64,000 nucleotides of DNA from Marinobacterium stanieri (GTDB taxonomy: Bacteria; Pseudomonadota; Gammaproteobacteria; Pseudomonadales; Balneatricaceae): positions 124,001 through 188,000 of the forward strand of contig NZ_FTMN01000001.1 of the NCBI RefSeq assembly GCF_900155945.1. Reading direction: 5' to 3'. The translations under genes and the position numbers were made by a program. The notes under the pieces were generated by a model that had not been told where the DNA came from, did no database searches, and was given only the letters and a program-made list of their open reading frames with translations. Positions 1,880 through 6,456 of this stretch are shown in pieces. Positions within the stretch are counted from its first letter, which is position 1, and each line of letters begins with the position of its first letter.

Positions 1880-2392
1880 TCACCAGAGATCGCCAAAGCG
1901 ATCGCGATGACACAGGTACAGGCGCAATTCAAACTCCAGCTGATGGTAGTCCGGCTCCATATGGCAGCAGAGTTTATAGAACGCCTTGCCATGCTCTTTT
2001 TCCCTCAGGTGCGCCAGCTCATGCACAAGGATCATACGCAGAAAGGGCTCGGGCACCTTGCGAAACAGGGATGACACCCGGATCTCGTTTTTGGACTTCA
2101 GCTTCTTGCCCTGTACCCGCGAAGCATAGGTATGCAGGCCCAGCGCATTATTGATGATGTGAATCTTGTCGTCGTAGATCACCTTGCTGATCGGCGATGA
2201 ACTGCGCATATATTCATTCTTGATCGCCTGGGCATAGTCATACAACGCACGCTCAGAACCAAGACCATGCGCCTGCGGGTACTTCCTCAACAGCCAATCG
2301 CCAGAACGCTGGTTGTCCAGCAGCGCCTGCACCTGTTGCTGAACGTCCGGGCTGTAGCCGCCGAGATATTTGGATACCATGGGTTTACTCAT
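1880..2392 (-). CDS. ygjP: YgjP-like zinc metallohydrolase
   Basis: This 170-residue protein closely follows E. coli YgjP in pattern: NALGLHT (about 82-88), SRVQG, EIRVSSLFR, EPFLRM and then the zinc site HELAH (124-128), with a further histidine in EKEHGKAF (H134) and the cysteine/histidine segment LCCHMEPDYHQLE. The family (DUF45/M48-related fold) was long called a predicted metallopeptidase; the E. coli protein has been reported to act as a nucleotide (UTP) pyrophosphatase, so the substrate here is uncertain. It is convergent with rlmF and marks the left border of the AT-rich island. Its Shine-Dalgarno is weak. Confidence 0.85.
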   Translation of the reverse strand: MSKPMVSKYLGGYSPDVQQQVQALLDNQRSGDWLLRKYPQAHGLGSERALYDYAQAIKNEYMRSSSPISKVIYDDKIHIINNALGLHTYASRVQGKKLKSKNEIRVSSLFRKVPEPFLRMILVHELAHLREKEHGKAFYKLCCHMEPDYHQLEFELRLYLCHRDRFGDLW

Positions 2393-2655
2393 TCAATACT
2401 CAGACACGCAAACGCTCACACTCAGCGGATGACACAGAGATCAATCGTGAGCCGCATAAGCGCCCCCTGTTGGAAAGGGTTATTGACAGGCATTTTACCT
2501 GTGTGGCCGGCAAACGGAACAAGGGGCTGTACTCACTAGGGACTGGCAACAGGCTCAAAAATCGTTCACTATCAGGAACACTATGGATCGGCCGCTGCAG
2601 GATACTGCACACGGCAAAGCTGCAAAACGCGCAAGCTCGTTTTCACCGGAAGAGA

Positions 2656-2775
2656 ATGGCTGTGATATCTCGACTTATCCTTTCTCTTCTTATGCTTACA
2701 TCAGCTCTTAGCCTTTGGCTTGGAGCAAAAGCACGCATGCGCAGTATTAAAAATGTTAAAAATTTTCGGATCTAA
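2656..2775 (+). CDS. Small membrane peptide (39 aa) upstream of AAA-HEPN ATPase
   Basis: An ATG at 2656, preceded by GGAAGAG, opens a 39-codon frame. It encodes one hydrophobic helix (residues 3-24, rich in Leu/Ile/Met/Ser) followed by a strongly basic tail (KARMR, then KNVKNF). Its TAA (2773-2775) overlaps the AAGGAGA Shine-Dalgarno of the following ATPase gene, the arrangement expected for translational coupling. No family is recognised. Type I toxin-like or effector-like membrane peptides have this size and layout, but that is only resemblance. The same frame is open further upstream to 2470, but that extension is low-complexity and not protein-like. Confidence 0.4.
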   Translation: MAVISRLILSLLMLTSALSLWLGAKARMRSIKNVKNFRI

Positions 2776-2780
2776 GGAGA
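2774..2780 (+). promoter_or_regulatory. Shine-Dalgarno that fixes a TTG start
   Basis: AAGGAGA, ending 7 nt before the TTG at 2788. It decides the start of the ATPase gene, which has no ATG for its first 74 codons. It overlaps the stop codon of the small upstream frame (TAAGGAG). Confidence 0.7.
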
Positions 2781-2787
2781 AATAGTA

Positions 2788-4866
2788 TTGGGACAGGTAA
2801 GAGCGGAAGTTAATGATGGTTTGCTTTTCGACCACCCCGAACATAGAGATTTCTTAATTCCTTTCTTAAATGGATTTTTTGTTACATGGGGACGCCGGCG
2901 AAGAGAGTATAATACGGAGCTGTTCGTCTATTTCCTTTCTCCTGAGGATCACTTCAAAGAGTCATATGGATTTGAAAATGAGGTTCTATTGGTCTATGCC
3001 CCGTATGATCGTATGGAGCCTAGAACCTTTCAGGCGGTGGAACAAATTCTTGCAACATCGCCAGCCAAAGGAAGGGTAGAAACCCTAAGCTATTTTCTTG
3101 TTACCGACGCCGAAGATATAGAGGAATGGATGGATTCGTATATATCTTCGCGGCAAGAATCACGGGTAGTTATCCCGTTTTACAAAGAATTGTTGGTTCA
3201 CGCAAAGCAAAGCGGTGACGATTGGTTTGTAAGGAACTCCCTCGACAAACATTTCTTTGGAAGAGATCTTTTTAATTATTCATTGCCTCTTATAGACGAT
3301 GCCTACTTTTTTGGCCGTCAAAGCCTATTAATGGATTATTATGACTCAATAAAACAAAGTGAAAACCGGGCTATTTTTGGGTTAAGAAAAACTGGTAAGA
3401 CCTCATTTTTATATAAGCTAAAAAGGCTATGTGAGAGTGAAAGATCAGCTATTGTATTTTACTATGACTGCAAGGTTCCACATATACGAAAGTCAAAATG
3501 GAATGAGTTGTTGTGCGATATAGCCAATGACATTGCCAAAAAATATGGAATAACGATTAAAGGCGAGTACAGTGAGCGTAGCGCATCAAAGGATTTTGAA
3601 GAATTAGTTAGAAACATCTATGAGGACGGAGAAAAAATCGTCTTAATGCTTGACGAGATAGAGTATGTATCATTTGTCTCGCCGAAAAACAGGCATTGGG
3701 CTGATGACTACATAGACTTCTGGCAAACAATGTGGTCCTGTCAGAGTCAATTCAAGTGCATTTCATTTATACTTGCTGGCGTAAATCCAACTGTAGTAGA
3801 GAAAGATTCTGTTGATGGTGTACAAAACCCATTATTTGGCATCGTTCCTCATAAATATTTGACAGGACTTAGTCAAGACGAAGTCAAAGTAATGCTCAAA
3901 AAACTCGGGAAACGTATGGGCATGAGGTTTGACTCCGGTGCATGCAATGAAATTTCAAAGTGGTATGGCGGACATCCTCTATTAACCAGACAAGCTTGTA
4001 GCAGTCTTAACTCATTTCTGTCGGAGGAAAACAGTAAGCCGCTGGAAATATCTAAGGAAGTTTTCTTAAGATACAAGCCGCAAGTTGATCGGGAGTTGGT
4101 GTTTTACAGTGACCATGCAATTTCCGAAATCCGTCAATTTTATCCTGATGAATACTTCTTGTTTGAACTTCTTTCTATAGGCCAAGAATTAGAGTTCAAG
4201 GAGCTTTCGCAGGAGTCAGCGGAGATAAAGCATCTGTTGGGGTATCAGCTTATTAAGCGATGCAGAACAGGCTATGAGGTTAATATACCTGTTATCGCAA
4301 GTCGGGTTGCTCTTGAGTCAAAAAGGAAAAGTGATAGGGAACTTATATATCCAATTGTGGAAAGTAGTAATAGGGAAAGTTGGCTGAAGAGAAGGGTGCA
4401 AGAAATCTGTTCGGAGATAAGGCTTCTAGAGAAGCTTATAAAAAGGAACGGAAAGCCACTACTATTTGGTGCGAATTCCTTTCCTGAAGCGGAGCAGTTG
4501 CAGAATATAGAAGTTTCTTATAATGAATCTCAGTTCTCGTTCTTTATAAATGTCCTAAATAGATGCTTTGTTGAATCTATCGAACATTATGGAAAGGACA
4601 AGGGGGACTCATCTTACTTCTGGGGTGCTATCAAACATGAGTATCAGTTTTTATGGTCGTCTTTGAGAAGAATAAAGGTTTATCGAAATGAAAGAGATCA
4701 TTTACATTTGAATGATAATGTGTCCTCTCAGCTTTTCGAATTCCTAGAAGAAGATTTGGAAGGAAAACGGTTTTCTCAAGTTTCCGAGGCATATTTTGTC
4801 CTTCAACAGCGGGTTCTAGATAGATTTTTACTGTCAATACTTCGGGAGATTGATCGTTTCAACTGA
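2788..4866 (+). CDS. AAA/STAND-like ATPase with C-terminal HEPN-like domain, putative defence effector
   Basis: A 692-residue protein starting at TTG. Residues 1-165 form a domain I do not recognise. An ATPase domain begins at FFGR (174-177), with Walker A GLRKTGKTS (198-206), Walker B IVLMLDE (284-290), a sensor-like stretch FILAGVNPT (328-336) and GGHPLLTRQ (394-402). This layout is that of archaeal-type/nSTAND ATPases. The helical C-terminus (about 530-692) carries RNERDH (633-638), which fits the R-N-x3-H motif of HEPN ribonucleases, followed by LQQRVLDRFL. I infer an NTP-gated sensor with an RNase effector, the architecture of several abortive-infection systems. The gene is markedly AT-rich compared with its neighbours, suggesting horizontal transfer. 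The HEPN assignment rests on one motif and helix pattern. Confidence 0.75.
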   Translation: MGQVRAEVNDGLLFDHPEHRDFLIPFLNGFFVTWGRRRREYNTELFVYFLSPEDHFKESYGFENEVLLVYAPYDRMEPRTFQAVEQILATSPAKGRVETLSYFLVTDAEDIEEWMDSYISSRQESRVVIPFYKELLVHAKQSGDDWFVRNSLDKHFFGRDLFNYSLPLIDDAYFFGRQSLLMDYYDSIKQSENRAIFGLRKTGKTSFLYKLKRLCESERSAIVFYYDCKVPHIRKSKWNELLCDIANDIAKKYGITIKGEYSERSASKDFEELVRNIYEDGEKIVLMLDEIEYVSFVSPKNRHWADDYIDFWQTMWSCQSQFKCISFILAGVNPTVVEKDSVDGVQNPLFGIVPHKYLTGLSQDEVKVMLKKLGKRMGMRFDSGACNEISKWYGGHPLLTRQACSSLNSFLSEENSKPLEISKEVFLRYKPQVDRELVFYSDHAISEIRQFYPDEYFLFELLSIGQELEFKELSQESAEIKHLLGYQLIKRCRTGYEVNIPVIASRVALESKRKSDRELIYPIVESSNRESWLKRRVQEICSEIRLLEKLIKRNGKPLLFGANSFPEAEQLQNIEVSYNESQFSFFINVLNRCFVESIEHYGKDKGDSSYFWGAIKHEYQFLWSSLRRIKVYRNERDHLHLNDNVSSQLFEFLEEDLEGKRFSQVSEAYFVLQQRVLDRFLLSILREIDRFN

Positions 4867-4980
4867 GTGATTTTTAAAGACAGAAATACAACTTCTGAAT
4901 TACTTGTCTATGTTTAAATGATCATTGGCTTTCATAAATTTCGTTATAGCCTTGTCCTTATTATTAAATAAAAGGAATAT

Positions 4981-5220
4981 ATGATGAGACCGGTTGATCA
5001 AAGTTTTACCTTTTCATGGCGCTCTGAAATTGAAAAAGCAATTAACGCTGAATCCTCAATTCCTTCGGATGCAAAACAGGCAATTAAGGATTTTATTATT
5101 GAGAAACTAGATGATATAAAGAGCTTTTCTGAGAACCTTCTAGACTTTCCAGTAACCGATATAGTTGAAACGTATTGGCCAGTAGTGGTTGAAATTATAA
5201 AAGGTTTGGGAATCAGCTAA
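4981..5220 (+). CDS. Small hypothetical protein (79 aa)
   Basis: A 79-residue acidic, mostly helical protein starting at ATG 4981 with AAAGGA about 5 nt upstream; a second ATG follows directly. The middle (SDAKQAIKDFIIEKLDDIKSF) looks amphipathic, and the C-terminus (VVVEIIKGLG) is hydrophobic but too short for a firm membrane span. I recognise no family. It lies 114 bp downstream of the AAA-HEPN gene on the same strand, in equally AT-rich DNA, so it may belong to the same island or be a partner of the ATPase; the gap leaves room for its own promoter. Confidence 0.5.
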   Translation: MMRPVDQSFTFSWRSEIEKAINAESSIPSDAKQAIKDFIIEKLDDIKSFSENLLDFPVTDIVETYWPVVVEIIKGLGIS

Positions 5221-5247
5221 TCAGCAGTTGGCCGCCCCTCTCAGAAA

Positions 5248-5278
5248 TTGGGGTCAGAGTAACATTTCCCCTAATTGG
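5248..5278. repeat. Imperfect palindrome containing GGGGTCAGAGTAA
   Basis: AATTGGGG-(14 nt)-CCCC(T)AATT forms an 8-bp stem with one bulged base. The GGGGTCAGAGTAACATTT core resembles, from memory, the intergenic motif often seen around REP-associated transposases in gammaproteobacteria. No transposase gene is present here. It may be a footprint of past mobile activity at the island edge. Confidence 0.3.
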
Positions 5279-5350
5279 CTCTTATCGGTCGCACCTATAC
5301 TGGCGCTCCGGTGCGCCGCAAAGTCATGGTGTTAAATATCCGAGGAAATC

Positions 5351-5773
5351 ATGTACTACCAAATTGAGCCAGAAGTTGCAGGAGGATGGGGGGAAGGTAC
5401 GCAAGCAAACACGACTATTCATCCCCCAGAGGTTAAAAAGCTCGTCTATGAATTTGAAGGGTGGTCTGGTGACTCGATAGTGACTTCGTTTCCATGCTAT
5501 CTAATTACCGAGGAGCTGGCTCAATCTCTTACGCAAACGAAACTGTCAGGGTATAAATTAGCGCGCTGCGAAGTCACGAAATCTGAAGTTTTCAATGAGC
5601 TATACCCAAACATAACTCTCCCGTTATTCCTGTGGCTTAAAGTTGTCGGTGAGTCAGGGATAGATGATTTTGGGATAGGTAATGATCTAAGATTGGTCGT
5701 TTCGGATGTTGCACTATCAGTTTTAAAAGAACATTCGTTACATGAATGCGAAATTGAAGAAGTCGAATTTTAA
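5351..5773 (+). CDS. Hypothetical protein (140 aa), immunity-protein-like
   Basis: A 140-residue acidic protein with a clear Shine-Dalgarno (CGAGGAAATC) before ATG 5351. Features are HPPEVKKLVYEFEGWSGDSIVTSFPCYLIT (about 24-53), an LYPNITLPLFLWLKV segment (about 86-100) and DDFGIGNDLRLVVSDVAL (about 107-124). This pattern is like a family of small cytoplasmic proteins found near polymorphic toxins and in cassette-type islands, and I suspect an immunity-like role, but I cannot name the family. No toxin gene is next to it. It is AT-rich like the preceding genes. A 9-bp inverted repeat (ATGGTGTTA at 5326, TAACACCAT at 5800) brackets the gene. Confidence 0.6.
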   Translation: MYYQIEPEVAGGWGEGTQANTTIHPPEVKKLVYEFEGWSGDSIVTSFPCYLITEELAQSLTQTKLSGYKLARCEVTKSEVFNELYPNITLPLFLWLKVVGESGIDDFGIGNDLRLVVSDVALSVLKEHSLHECEIEEVEF

Positions 5774-5878
5774 TAAAAATGTTAGTGTTTCCTTTGGACT
5801 AACACCATATAAAAAGCCTATTCAAAATCAACCCTCTGTCCGAGAGGATTTCCTCAAATCAAGCCTTATTAAAGGCAC

Positions 5879-5907
5879 AAAAAACGGGCCACTAGGGCCC
5901 GTTTTTA
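5879..5907. terminator. Bidirectional intrinsic terminator (cold-shock gene)
   Basis: AAAAACGGGCC-actag-GGCCCGTTTTT: an 8-bp GC-rich stem with T-runs on both sides, 20 nt past the stop codon of the minus-strand cold-shock gene. It can also stop plus-strand transcription leaving the island. Confidence 0.85.
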
Positions 5908-5927
5908 TCGCTTACTGAACTCGAGGT

Positions 5928-6137
5928 TCAGATCGCGGAGATGTTTTCAGCCTGAGGGCCTTTCTGGCCCTGAGTAACAGTGAACTGAACTTCCTGGCCT
6001 TCAGTCAGGTTTTTAAATCCGGAGCCAGTAATCGCACTGAAATGGGCGAAAACATCCGGACCACCGCCCTTCTGCTCGATGAAGCCAAAGCCTTTAGTTT
6101 CGTTGAACCATTTAACGGTGCCAGTAGTAGTAGACAT
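5928..6137 (-). CDS. Cold-shock protein, CspA family
   Basis: A 69-residue single cold-shock domain (OB fold) that binds single-stranded RNA/DNA as a chaperone. RNP1 KGFGFI is at residues 15-20, RNP2-type VFAHF at 29-33, and the C-terminal [11 protein letters not shown] is typical. The start at 6137 ([11 protein letters not shown]) is chosen over an in-frame upstream ATG at 6179 because family members begin here and GAGAA lies just upstream. The gene has a long AT-rich leader region, as expected for cold-shock mRNAs. Which Csp paralogue it is cannot be decided from this copy. Confidence 0.93.
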
Positions 6138-6456
6138 AATAATATTCTCGTTCAAAAATTGTTTGAACGCTTCAGCCAAAATACTGAAGCTGTTCGATTA
6201 ATGCTTTAAATAATACAAGTACTTATGAAAAAAGAACGAGGAACATACTGTTTAGGCAGGACATCGAAAATGTGCATAAATGCAGGTCTTACTCTCAAGC
6301 AAAATCATCGTACGCTTATTTTCGTCCCGGTGACAGCTTTATTTAACTTATTTTAAAATAATACCGGAATAATAAATAAAACGCCGCCTTTTCAACATGT
6401 TAGACGTCCTGTCAAGAAGGCCTCCTTGTGCAGCTTCACATCCGAAGGCATGCCTA
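6138..6456. other. AT-rich non-coding stretch upstream of the cold-shock gene
   Basis: About 320 bp with no credible gene. It probably contains the cold-shock promoter and a long 5' untranslated region on the minus strand. I could not place a confident -35/-10 pair. The left half is visibly AT-rich (for example around 6200-6240 and 6340-6380). Confidence 0.4.

Follow-up and report, generated by a model that had tools for sequence, protein, structure and literature searches.

A probable NTPase-effector gene in a putative integron cassette behind an integrase-less attI-type site in Marinobacterium stanieri

The locus described here raises the question what a 39-codon frame and the large ATPase gene directly behind it have to do with each other. 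It lies in a stretch of 64,000 nt from Marinobacterium stanieri (contig NZ_FTMN01000001.1, positions 124,001 to 188,000; hereafter the window), where the short frame (2656..2775, plus strand) precedes a TTG-started open reading frame (ORF) of 692 amino acids (2788..4866, plus strand). A preliminary description had taken the two for an operon of a membrane peptide and an ATPase with a HEPN-type motif. In our analysis the supposed peptide falls within a repeated attI-type element, and we consider it fairly likely that the locus consists of an integron head without an integrase and a gene cassette behind it, and that this cassette encodes a nucleoside triphosphatase (NTPase)-effector anti-phage protein with a HEPN-type ribonuclease (RNase) end. 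It is a single gene and not an operon, and probably represents a defence cassette for an NTPase-gated RNase at an integron locus devoid of an integrase; the puzzling combination of peptide plus ATPase would be explained in this way.

The repeated element upstream of the ATPase gene

A DNA search of the host family revealed that positions 2527-2758 of the window recur elsewhere. With at most six candidates scored per genome, 34 of 116 host-family genomes match the element at E 0.001, some of them over 30-50 nt only, and a hand count gives 16 genomes in four genera whose match spans 180 nt or more. The 14 copies that were compared first lie at unrelated sites and are 71-87% identical. Based on the repeat search, copies found with a hidden Markov model, the profile of the 3' end and integrase genes adjacent to copies elsewhere, we describe the element as an attI-type integron site of approximately 240 nt (2525..2764, plus strand). 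The genome of M. stanieri itself possesses at least seven copies (C8:126527, which is the window copy, C8:93230, C17:161379, C18:175351, C3:105337, C18:230035 and a seventh one inside L083). All seven are without an integrase, and the six that were examined lead different genes. A strict pattern recovers four of the own-genome copies and the reversed pattern, used as a control, none.

The 3' end profile of the element (40 rows) reads GCGCATGCGCAGTATTAAAA..TGTTA, with values of 0.82 for G, 0.90 and 0.93 for the two T and 0.78 for A, followed by 0.25-0.55 per column. The genes downstream of the copies are mutually unrelated. That an attI site is joined to differing cassettes at G^TT is a general expectation for integrons; in the window the GTT occupies 2755-2757, and crossover would be expected after G2755. 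An ORF of at least 80 amino acids starts between -12 and +60 nt from the element end in 36 of 41 copies (median 14 nt), two of these ORFs being insertion sequence (IS) transposases. The window gene starts 23 nt past the element, and such an ORF is missing in L081, L091, L105, L106 and L108, the last of which has 8 nt of downstream sequence.

The element is regarded as attI-type because a divergent integron integrase (IntI) adjoins some copies and because conservation drops past the GTT before unrelated genes. In three other genomes (L102, L106, L107) an IntI of a second class immediately precedes the element, intact and in divergent orientation. Its assignment relies on 46-48% identity to L117, a sequence that passes the TIGR02249 cut-off. 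IntI remnants are found upstream of the element in L110, L112 and L115; IntI pseudogenes have been described as common (PMC2426708). Upstream sequence of up to 3 kb was available for 39 copies, and the remaining 33 of these show no IntI, L080 yielding a recombinase match only (25% identity). The seventh own-genome copy likewise has no real IntI match (43 amino acids at 30%, E 0.29). TIGR02249 is matched above cut-off in six of eight genomes of the genus, including that of M. stanieri (C8:3964-4911), and the flanks of these six loci (up to 1.5 kb) hold no copy of the element. The window element is homologous to a site beside an integron integrase, with no intI at the same locus.

The other end of the putative cassette is an attC remnant (5260..5337, plus strand) with an intact 3' half that ends in GTTAAAT at 5331-5337. 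Positions 5273-5335 are 83% identical over 63 nt (E 5e-11) to an attC-like site in the intact integron array of the same genome (C8:2643-2705, minus strand), and on account of this match we assign 2756-5331, with ORFs of 692 and 79 amino acids, to one putative cassette. Between 4866 and 6000 this is the one attC remnant; two further candidates of the regular expression lie within coding sequence. Repeats between the downstream genes of element copies are also attC-like (TAACAA...GCGTTA). An attC-like fold is situated where the first ORF ends in 10 of 36 copies; in two sets of control ORFs the counts are 2 of 75 and 1 of 116 (tested ORFs at least 80 amino acids long, control ORFs at least 150). 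The detector, a regular expression plus a fold, was used only with this position rule, since alone it is only about twofold enriched (in 198 kb downstream, 70 matches on the plus strand compared with 30 on the reverse strand; 20 in 116 kb upstream). A separate 26-nt match links window positions 5217-5242 to C3:31163-31188.

Several observations weigh against an integron origin of the window locus. No IntI match is present in the 2,524 nt that precede the window copy, the 5' half of the attC remnant is interrupted by the GGGGTCAGAGTAACATTTCCCC stretch (window 5240-5280), and the window copy belongs to the 26 of 36 whose first ORF is not directly followed by a detected attC. Chance alone also places ORFs of at least 80 amino acids frequently, as 43% of random flank positions (3377 of 7800) have one near by (binomial p 4e-9 for the element copies). 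A search for sigma-70-like promoters inside the element found none.

Two other explanations of the sequence before the ATPase gene have to be considered. According to one, the 39-residue peptide is a membrane partner or translational regulator of an ATPase-HEPN protein in a two-gene operon. The frame does exist and its TAA overlaps the AAGGAG that serves as Shine-Dalgarno sequence of the 692-residue gene, so this part of the preliminary description stands. Its status as a gene and its conservation upstream of homologues do not, since the frame belongs to repeated non-coding sequence that is followed by unrelated genes. The frame varies from 5 to 104 codons among the 35 copies bearing an ATG, is 39 codons long in the window copy only and is disrupted by indels in the element alignment. 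Tblastn searches with the peptide gave nothing better than E 2.2 in the 600 nt upstream of 15 homologues and nothing at E 10 in 72,556 plasmid records. Judged from these comparisons the peptide is not a gene but a misreading of the attI-type site; the operon, the membrane partner and the translational regulator fall with it, and a two-gene system is extremely improbable. According to the other explanation, the element is a mobile promoter or a leader resembling a miniature inverted-repeat transposable element, which happens to precede cassettes. It is multi-copy and mostly integrase-less, 15 copies share a further 130-140 nt upstream, whose 5' edge, located at or close to GCGCAC, is sharp (13 copies of the genus and two of G623), and an integron is said to have one attI only (PMC3607928). 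We nevertheless regard this origin as unlikely, given that IntI, intact or decayed, is divergently adjacent in six copies, that the 3' boundary is at the GTT, that attC-like sites follow downstream and that the element contains no promoter-like match.

The 15 extended integrase-less copies are L077-L089, L096 and L098. The window copy is without the extension, and the G238 copy, which adjoins the same ygjP gene, has part of it. Within 200 nt upstream, 15 of 39 copies possess CTGT-N8-ACAG, which we take to be a LexA-like box, and this set differs from that of the extended copies. Rfam yielded no family for the element over 2300-6400 and eight element loci; a cspA thermoregulator was dismissed as a candidate, as its score was below the cut-off and on the minus strand.

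The most unusual part of these results are the scattered integrase-less attI copies. One might speculate that, throughout the genus, an integrase-less attI module (240 nt plus about 135 nt, often with the LexA-like box) serves as a dispersed multi-copy landing pad that is loaded by an integrase elsewhere. A genome would then hold many small integron-built defence loci in place of a single array, with HEPN-type RNases as a good share of the loaded genes and the ATPase-HEPN fusion of the window as a new NTPase-gated member. This remains a rather doubtful proposal. Should the copies without integrase prove to be live, genomes would not be confined to one array for the capture of cassettes, which changes the view of how defence genes spread and where they should be searched. 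The element provides a DNA tag with which candidates for one-gene defence can be located.

A near copy of the element is located on the Pseudomonas aeruginosa plasmid pF076 (L143:7001-7300; 91.6% over 227 of 244 nt). This copy is cut at GCGCAGTATT by a transposase gene that looks IS5-like by eye, and on the 5' side its flank is similar to the one in L079. Viral contigs, searched with one exact pattern, contained no match. In L110 (3255-3554, plus strand) and L115 (248-1270, minus strand) the same transposase, IS110/IS1111-like by eye, lies 60 nt past the element, and this identical distance in two genomes suggests insertion at the attI end.

The 692-residue protein and its relatives

The TTG-started gene at 2788..4866, with AAGGAG 8 nt upstream of the start, is a real gene far beyond chance, since it has relatives at 67%, 48%, 44% and 32% identity and a low G+C content (38-43% across 3001-6000 of the window, compared with 51-62% from 7001 onward). 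It is present as a single copy in its own genome and encodes an ATPase of the STAND/AAA type as the first gene of the putative cassette. The ATPase core extends from before Walker A to Walker B (3358..3657, plus strand). Walker A reads G198-L-R-K-T-G203-K204-T205-S206 and Walker B ends in D289-E290. A GxP-type motif downstream of Walker B is a feature of STAND/ATPase_2 proteins, and here it is represented by G394 and P397. G203, K204, T205, S206, D289, E290, G394 and P397 are all invariant in five of five aligned sequences. The complete ATPase core that had been proposed is therefore borne out, but the numbering of the Walker A lysine had to be corrected from K203 to K204, position 203 being a glycine. 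STAND immune proteins of the Avs/NLR type possess a C-terminal repeat sensor; Pfam detects no C-terminal repeat family in the window protein, which ends in a helical domain of 169 residues in the structural model.

The domain in front of the ATPase (residues 1-165; 2788..3282, plus strand) had been described as lacking a recognised family, and this view holds: only weak fold matches were obtained. Its alpha/beta model has a predicted local distance difference test (pLDDT) score of 86 and is unreliable at residues 159-178. Foldseek finds EndoMS (E 0.03), Cap4 (E 0.041), BspD6I, 2vld, FokI and RPB5, all of which we take to be restriction-endonuclease-like folds. A restriction-endonuclease-like fold is thereby suggested by a weak match; the best E value is 0.03, and acetyl-CoA carboxylase and retroviral integrases are interspersed among the endonucleases, both of which count against this assignment. 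Glu65 is invariant in ten of ten aligned sequences, none of which has the lysine at +2 from it that a PD-(D/E)xK catalytic motif would require. For this reason catalysis by the domain is unlikely, and a role in sensing or DNA contact might be inferred instead.

No named anti-phage system was found for the protein in PADLOC and NCBIfam, where similarity is limited to the ATPase level, in agreement with the preliminary description. The best PADLOC match is PDC-S60 (E 1.8e-4), restricted to the ATPase part, and DS41_1 reaches E 0.0063. Pfam gives AAA, ATPase_2 and STAND-type models only, all below cut-off (31.1 versus 33.2 bits for ATPase_2).

Relatives of the protein are rare. They occur in one of 293 genomes of the order, which is the window's own, in four of 321 genomes of the class (E 1e-10) and in four of 398 of the phylum (E 1e-15), the own genome included in both cases. 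A scan of genome contigs, which finds close relatives only, detected a single locus in Cohnella fermenti (48% over residues 1-689). Relatives are present in 21 of 72,556 plasmid records, in none of 50,697 phage records and at 12 loci in IMG/VR, the best of which is L007 with 67% identity over the full length. L007, L002 and L009 are near full length. The fully read members have the N-terminal and ATPase parts in common; L008 is truncated where its contig stops, the N-terminus of L018 differs, and some matches, like those on two Nostoc plasmids, cover 34-36% around the ATPase.

The C-termini of these relatives differ. Type A, that of the window protein, is found in L007, L008, L009, L002 and L140, and also as a stand-alone protein of 208 amino acids on an Enterococcus faecium plasmid (L005:4728-5354, plus strand), beside AbrB/MazE-type and Doc-type genes. 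Type B is characterised by the motif R-x-[DE]-A-H and is found in L003, L004, L006, L010-L017, L020, L021, L141 and L142. The C-terminus of L018 belongs to neither type, and a profile comparison with hhalign left types A and B unlinked. Since a fixed N-terminal and ATPase body is combined with exchanged ends, one of which also occurs alone, the comparison suggests that the C-terminus is a swappable effector. Type B looks like a second effector type in the same ATPase family; scanned alone, the C-terminus of L004 has no Pfam match above cut-off. One NTPase body with interchangeable C-terminal effectors would be a compact test case for NTPase-gated RNases.

The surroundings of the homologues that were read are not of a housekeeping kind but comprise phage integrases, phage-type contigs and plasmids, which agrees with the defence proposal. 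In a PHROGs annotation of neighbours for ten chosen proteins, integrases adjoin L007, L008, L010, L011 and L017 and tail genes adjoin L009 and L013, while the Deinococcus and Klebsiella copies are plasmid-borne. A tRNA upstream of the L007 gene, suspected by eye, was not found.

The C-terminal domain and the sibling cassettes

The putative effector domain of the window protein comprises residues 524-692 (4357..4863, plus strand), with the RNERDH motif at residues 633-638 (4684..4701, plus strand). An AlphaFold2 model computed with five sequences is all-helical with a mean pLDDT of 88. The helical C-terminus and the motif agree with what had been read from the sequence. The arginine and histidine of R-[N/H]-x3-H are invariant in six of six aligned type A sequences and are also present in L140. 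All seven sequences with a type A C-terminus, the window's included, thus retain the motif, whose loss would have spoken against a HEPN domain. The residue after the arginine is N in five and H in two of them, so that each has the Rx4-6H arrangement of HEPN proteins with a polar residue following R, and the most distant of the seven C-termini is only 23% identical to that of the window. In domain numbering the helices are 3-30, 45-48, 57-81, 88-95, 97-111, 120-133 and 145-168. The model places R633 at the end of helix 97-111, the third core helix, and H638 in a loop, where a block of ten residues has a pLDDT of 59. In HEPN domains, as described in PMC3710099, the motif occupies the end of helix 3 and the start of the loop to helix 4, and an insert separates helices 2 and 3; helix order and motif position of the model fit this description, with helices assigned by hand.

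Other results speak against a HEPN domain. Pfam matches no HEPN family, and Foldseek with the model finds no HEPN fold, the best matches being at E 1.1 in the PDB and E 0.88 in BFVD. HEPN proteins have a second acidic residue, typically within Ex3[KR]; here Glu580 is invariant in the alignments and located at the start of helix 2, but it is outside any Ex3[KR] motif, as the window protein has no K/R at +4. The best sequence match in the PDB is 7cfi 'Hemolysin' (E 0.0017), with others weak. We presume that 7cfi is a CBS protein and rejected this identity since the C-terminal model is all-helical; the match is probably due to chance. The expected HEPN fold is hence reflected in the helix topology but not in any fold or family match, and 'HEPN-like, unproven' is the designation that we prefer for the modelled domain.

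In the explanation that we favour, the attI-type site (2525-2764) ends at the conserved GTT and is followed by the putative cassette (2756-5331), which ends in the damaged attC and carries a single-protein NTPase-effector system plus the 79-residue ORF. A role of the protein in guarding against phage is the most likely one. The restriction-endonuclease-like, probably non-catalytic N-terminal domain, the ATPase module or both might sense an infection signal, and nucleotide binding or hydrolysis at K204, D289 and E290 might switch the protein, as the Walker motifs imply. The C-terminal domain would then act as a metal-independent HEPN-type RNase by means of R633 and H638 and cut host or phage RNA, so that growth stops; defence would be exerted through RNA cleavage. 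The RNase role is proposed because the motif is conserved, because of where the model places it and because the domain is swapped between proteins. The sequence itself shows the anatomy of the locus, with its repeated attI-type element, attC remnant, NTPase motifs, conserved R-[N/H]-x3-H, exchangeable C-terminus and mobile-element surroundings, and from this anatomy the mechanism is inferred.

The cassettes behind other element copies may be compared with this proposal. An initial annotation covered ten proteins picked by eye. A later one dealt with 34 of the 36 first ORFs and omitted those of L110 and L115, which are IS transposases. At least five of the 34 match PADLOC models at E 1e-5 (ApeA/PDC-S58, PDC-S34, PDC-S66, NsnA and PD-Lambda-1). 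Pfam identifies TIR plus SLOG, ApeA HEPN, PIN, GmrSD and Schlafen AlbA_2 domains, but also Imm70, an acetyltransferase, a hydrolase and DUF2846, which have no link to phage defence, and many of the 34 have no match in Pfam or PADLOC. RNxxxH is present in five of the 34 first ORFs (four of 33 without the window), compared with a shuffle mean of 0.38 and none of 2000 shuffles reaching five; it occurs in one of 100 upstream-flank ORFs and in none of 43 other window ORFs. This test is post hoc, as it was run after such motifs had been noticed. When D or H is allowed after R, the count is six of 34 (shuffle mean 1.18, reached by two of 2000) versus five of 100 and one of 43. An RNxxxH cassette protein did not match the type A C-terminal profile. 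Three small first-cassette proteins with RNRVAH (L078:3244-3783, plus strand), RNWLAH (L107:1588-2094, minus strand) and RNSFLH (L109:3230-3883, plus strand) are HEPN candidates; none has a Pfam match at E 0.001. Another defence candidate is the 695-residue first cassette of L080 (3878-5962, minus strand) with TIR and SLOG cluster 2 domains.

Two alternatives concern the function of the protein. The C-terminus might be a nuclease with a different fold, or a helical adaptor devoid of catalytic activity, and its conserved R and H would then serve to bind nucleic acid or a partner; the protein would still be an NTPase-gated conflict protein. The Foldseek, PDB sequence and Pfam searches without a HEPN match argue for this, as do the fruitless profile comparisons with the type B C-terminus and with another RNxxxH cassette protein. 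However, R-[N/H]-x3-H is invariant in seven sequences down to 23% identity, helix order and motif position are HEPN-like, and RNxxxH recurs among the sibling cassettes, and we therefore see the adaptor as conceivable, although not as the probable solution. It is also imaginable that the ATPase functions in DNA metabolism or in plasmid or prophage maintenance and not in defence, given its ORC1/Cdc6-like ATPase similarity and the integrases adjacent to relatives. The exchangeable C-terminus and the match of some sibling cassettes to defence models make such a function improbable.

Known systems and neighbouring features

Darracq/Littner et al., Getz et al. and Kieffer et al. reportedly describe chromosomal and mobile integrons with anti-phage cassettes. 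Integron cassettes have already been presented as a reservoir of phage defence, with defence genes reduced in size (PMC12409362), and studies on anti-phage cassettes are cited in PMC13092281. The present locus resembles these integrons in its defence-like cassette genes, attI, attC and, within the family, IntI, but here the attI-type site exists in many copies, most of which lack IntI, and the putative cassette is large (about 2.6 kb), in contrast to the size reduction reported in PMC12409362. Clusters of attC sites lacking integron integrases (CALIN) likewise have cassettes without an adjacent integrase. In contrast, an attI-type head is present here at each copy, and the window has a single damaged attC and not the two or more attC sites of a CALIN. 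Delta-attI-type gene cassettes also have an attI sequence displaced from the integrase; they are resistance cassettes of mobile integrons (PMC12901181), whereas here attI-like sites lead genes genome-wide. No paper on scattered integrase-less attI copies was recognised in a search that mostly did not extend to subscription literature, and hence this is no proof of novelty.

HEPN proteins from integron cassettes have been noted before, in a family that includes PDB 3jrt (PMC3710099). The window protein shares with such RNases, and with ApeA, the R-[N/H]-x3-H motif, the helix order and the association with integrons, but it has no detectable sequence or fold match to them and is fused to a STAND-type ATPase with a restriction-endonuclease-like N-terminus. 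The nSTAND2-type systems with GT4 or HEPN effectors similarly combine a STAND-like module with variable effectors. According to PMC8195603, these are two-gene systems with eroded STAND modules, whereas the window protein unites intact Walker A and B motifs in a single polypeptide.

The 79-residue ORF inside the putative cassette (4981..5220, plus strand) has no Pfam family above cut-off and none in PADLOC or NCBIfam. The next gene past the attC remnant, an ORF of 140 amino acids (5351..5773, plus strand), is also without a family match in Pfam, PADLOC and NCBIfam scans; by eye it is possibly immunity-like. Around the 692-residue gene, no convincing inverted or direct repeats were detected. A cspA-type gene (5928-6179, minus strand) lies close to the window copy of the element. 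Such a gene is also near the element in G278:C24 (89% over 507 nt) and, on the opposite side, in G623:C35 (L081, L088).

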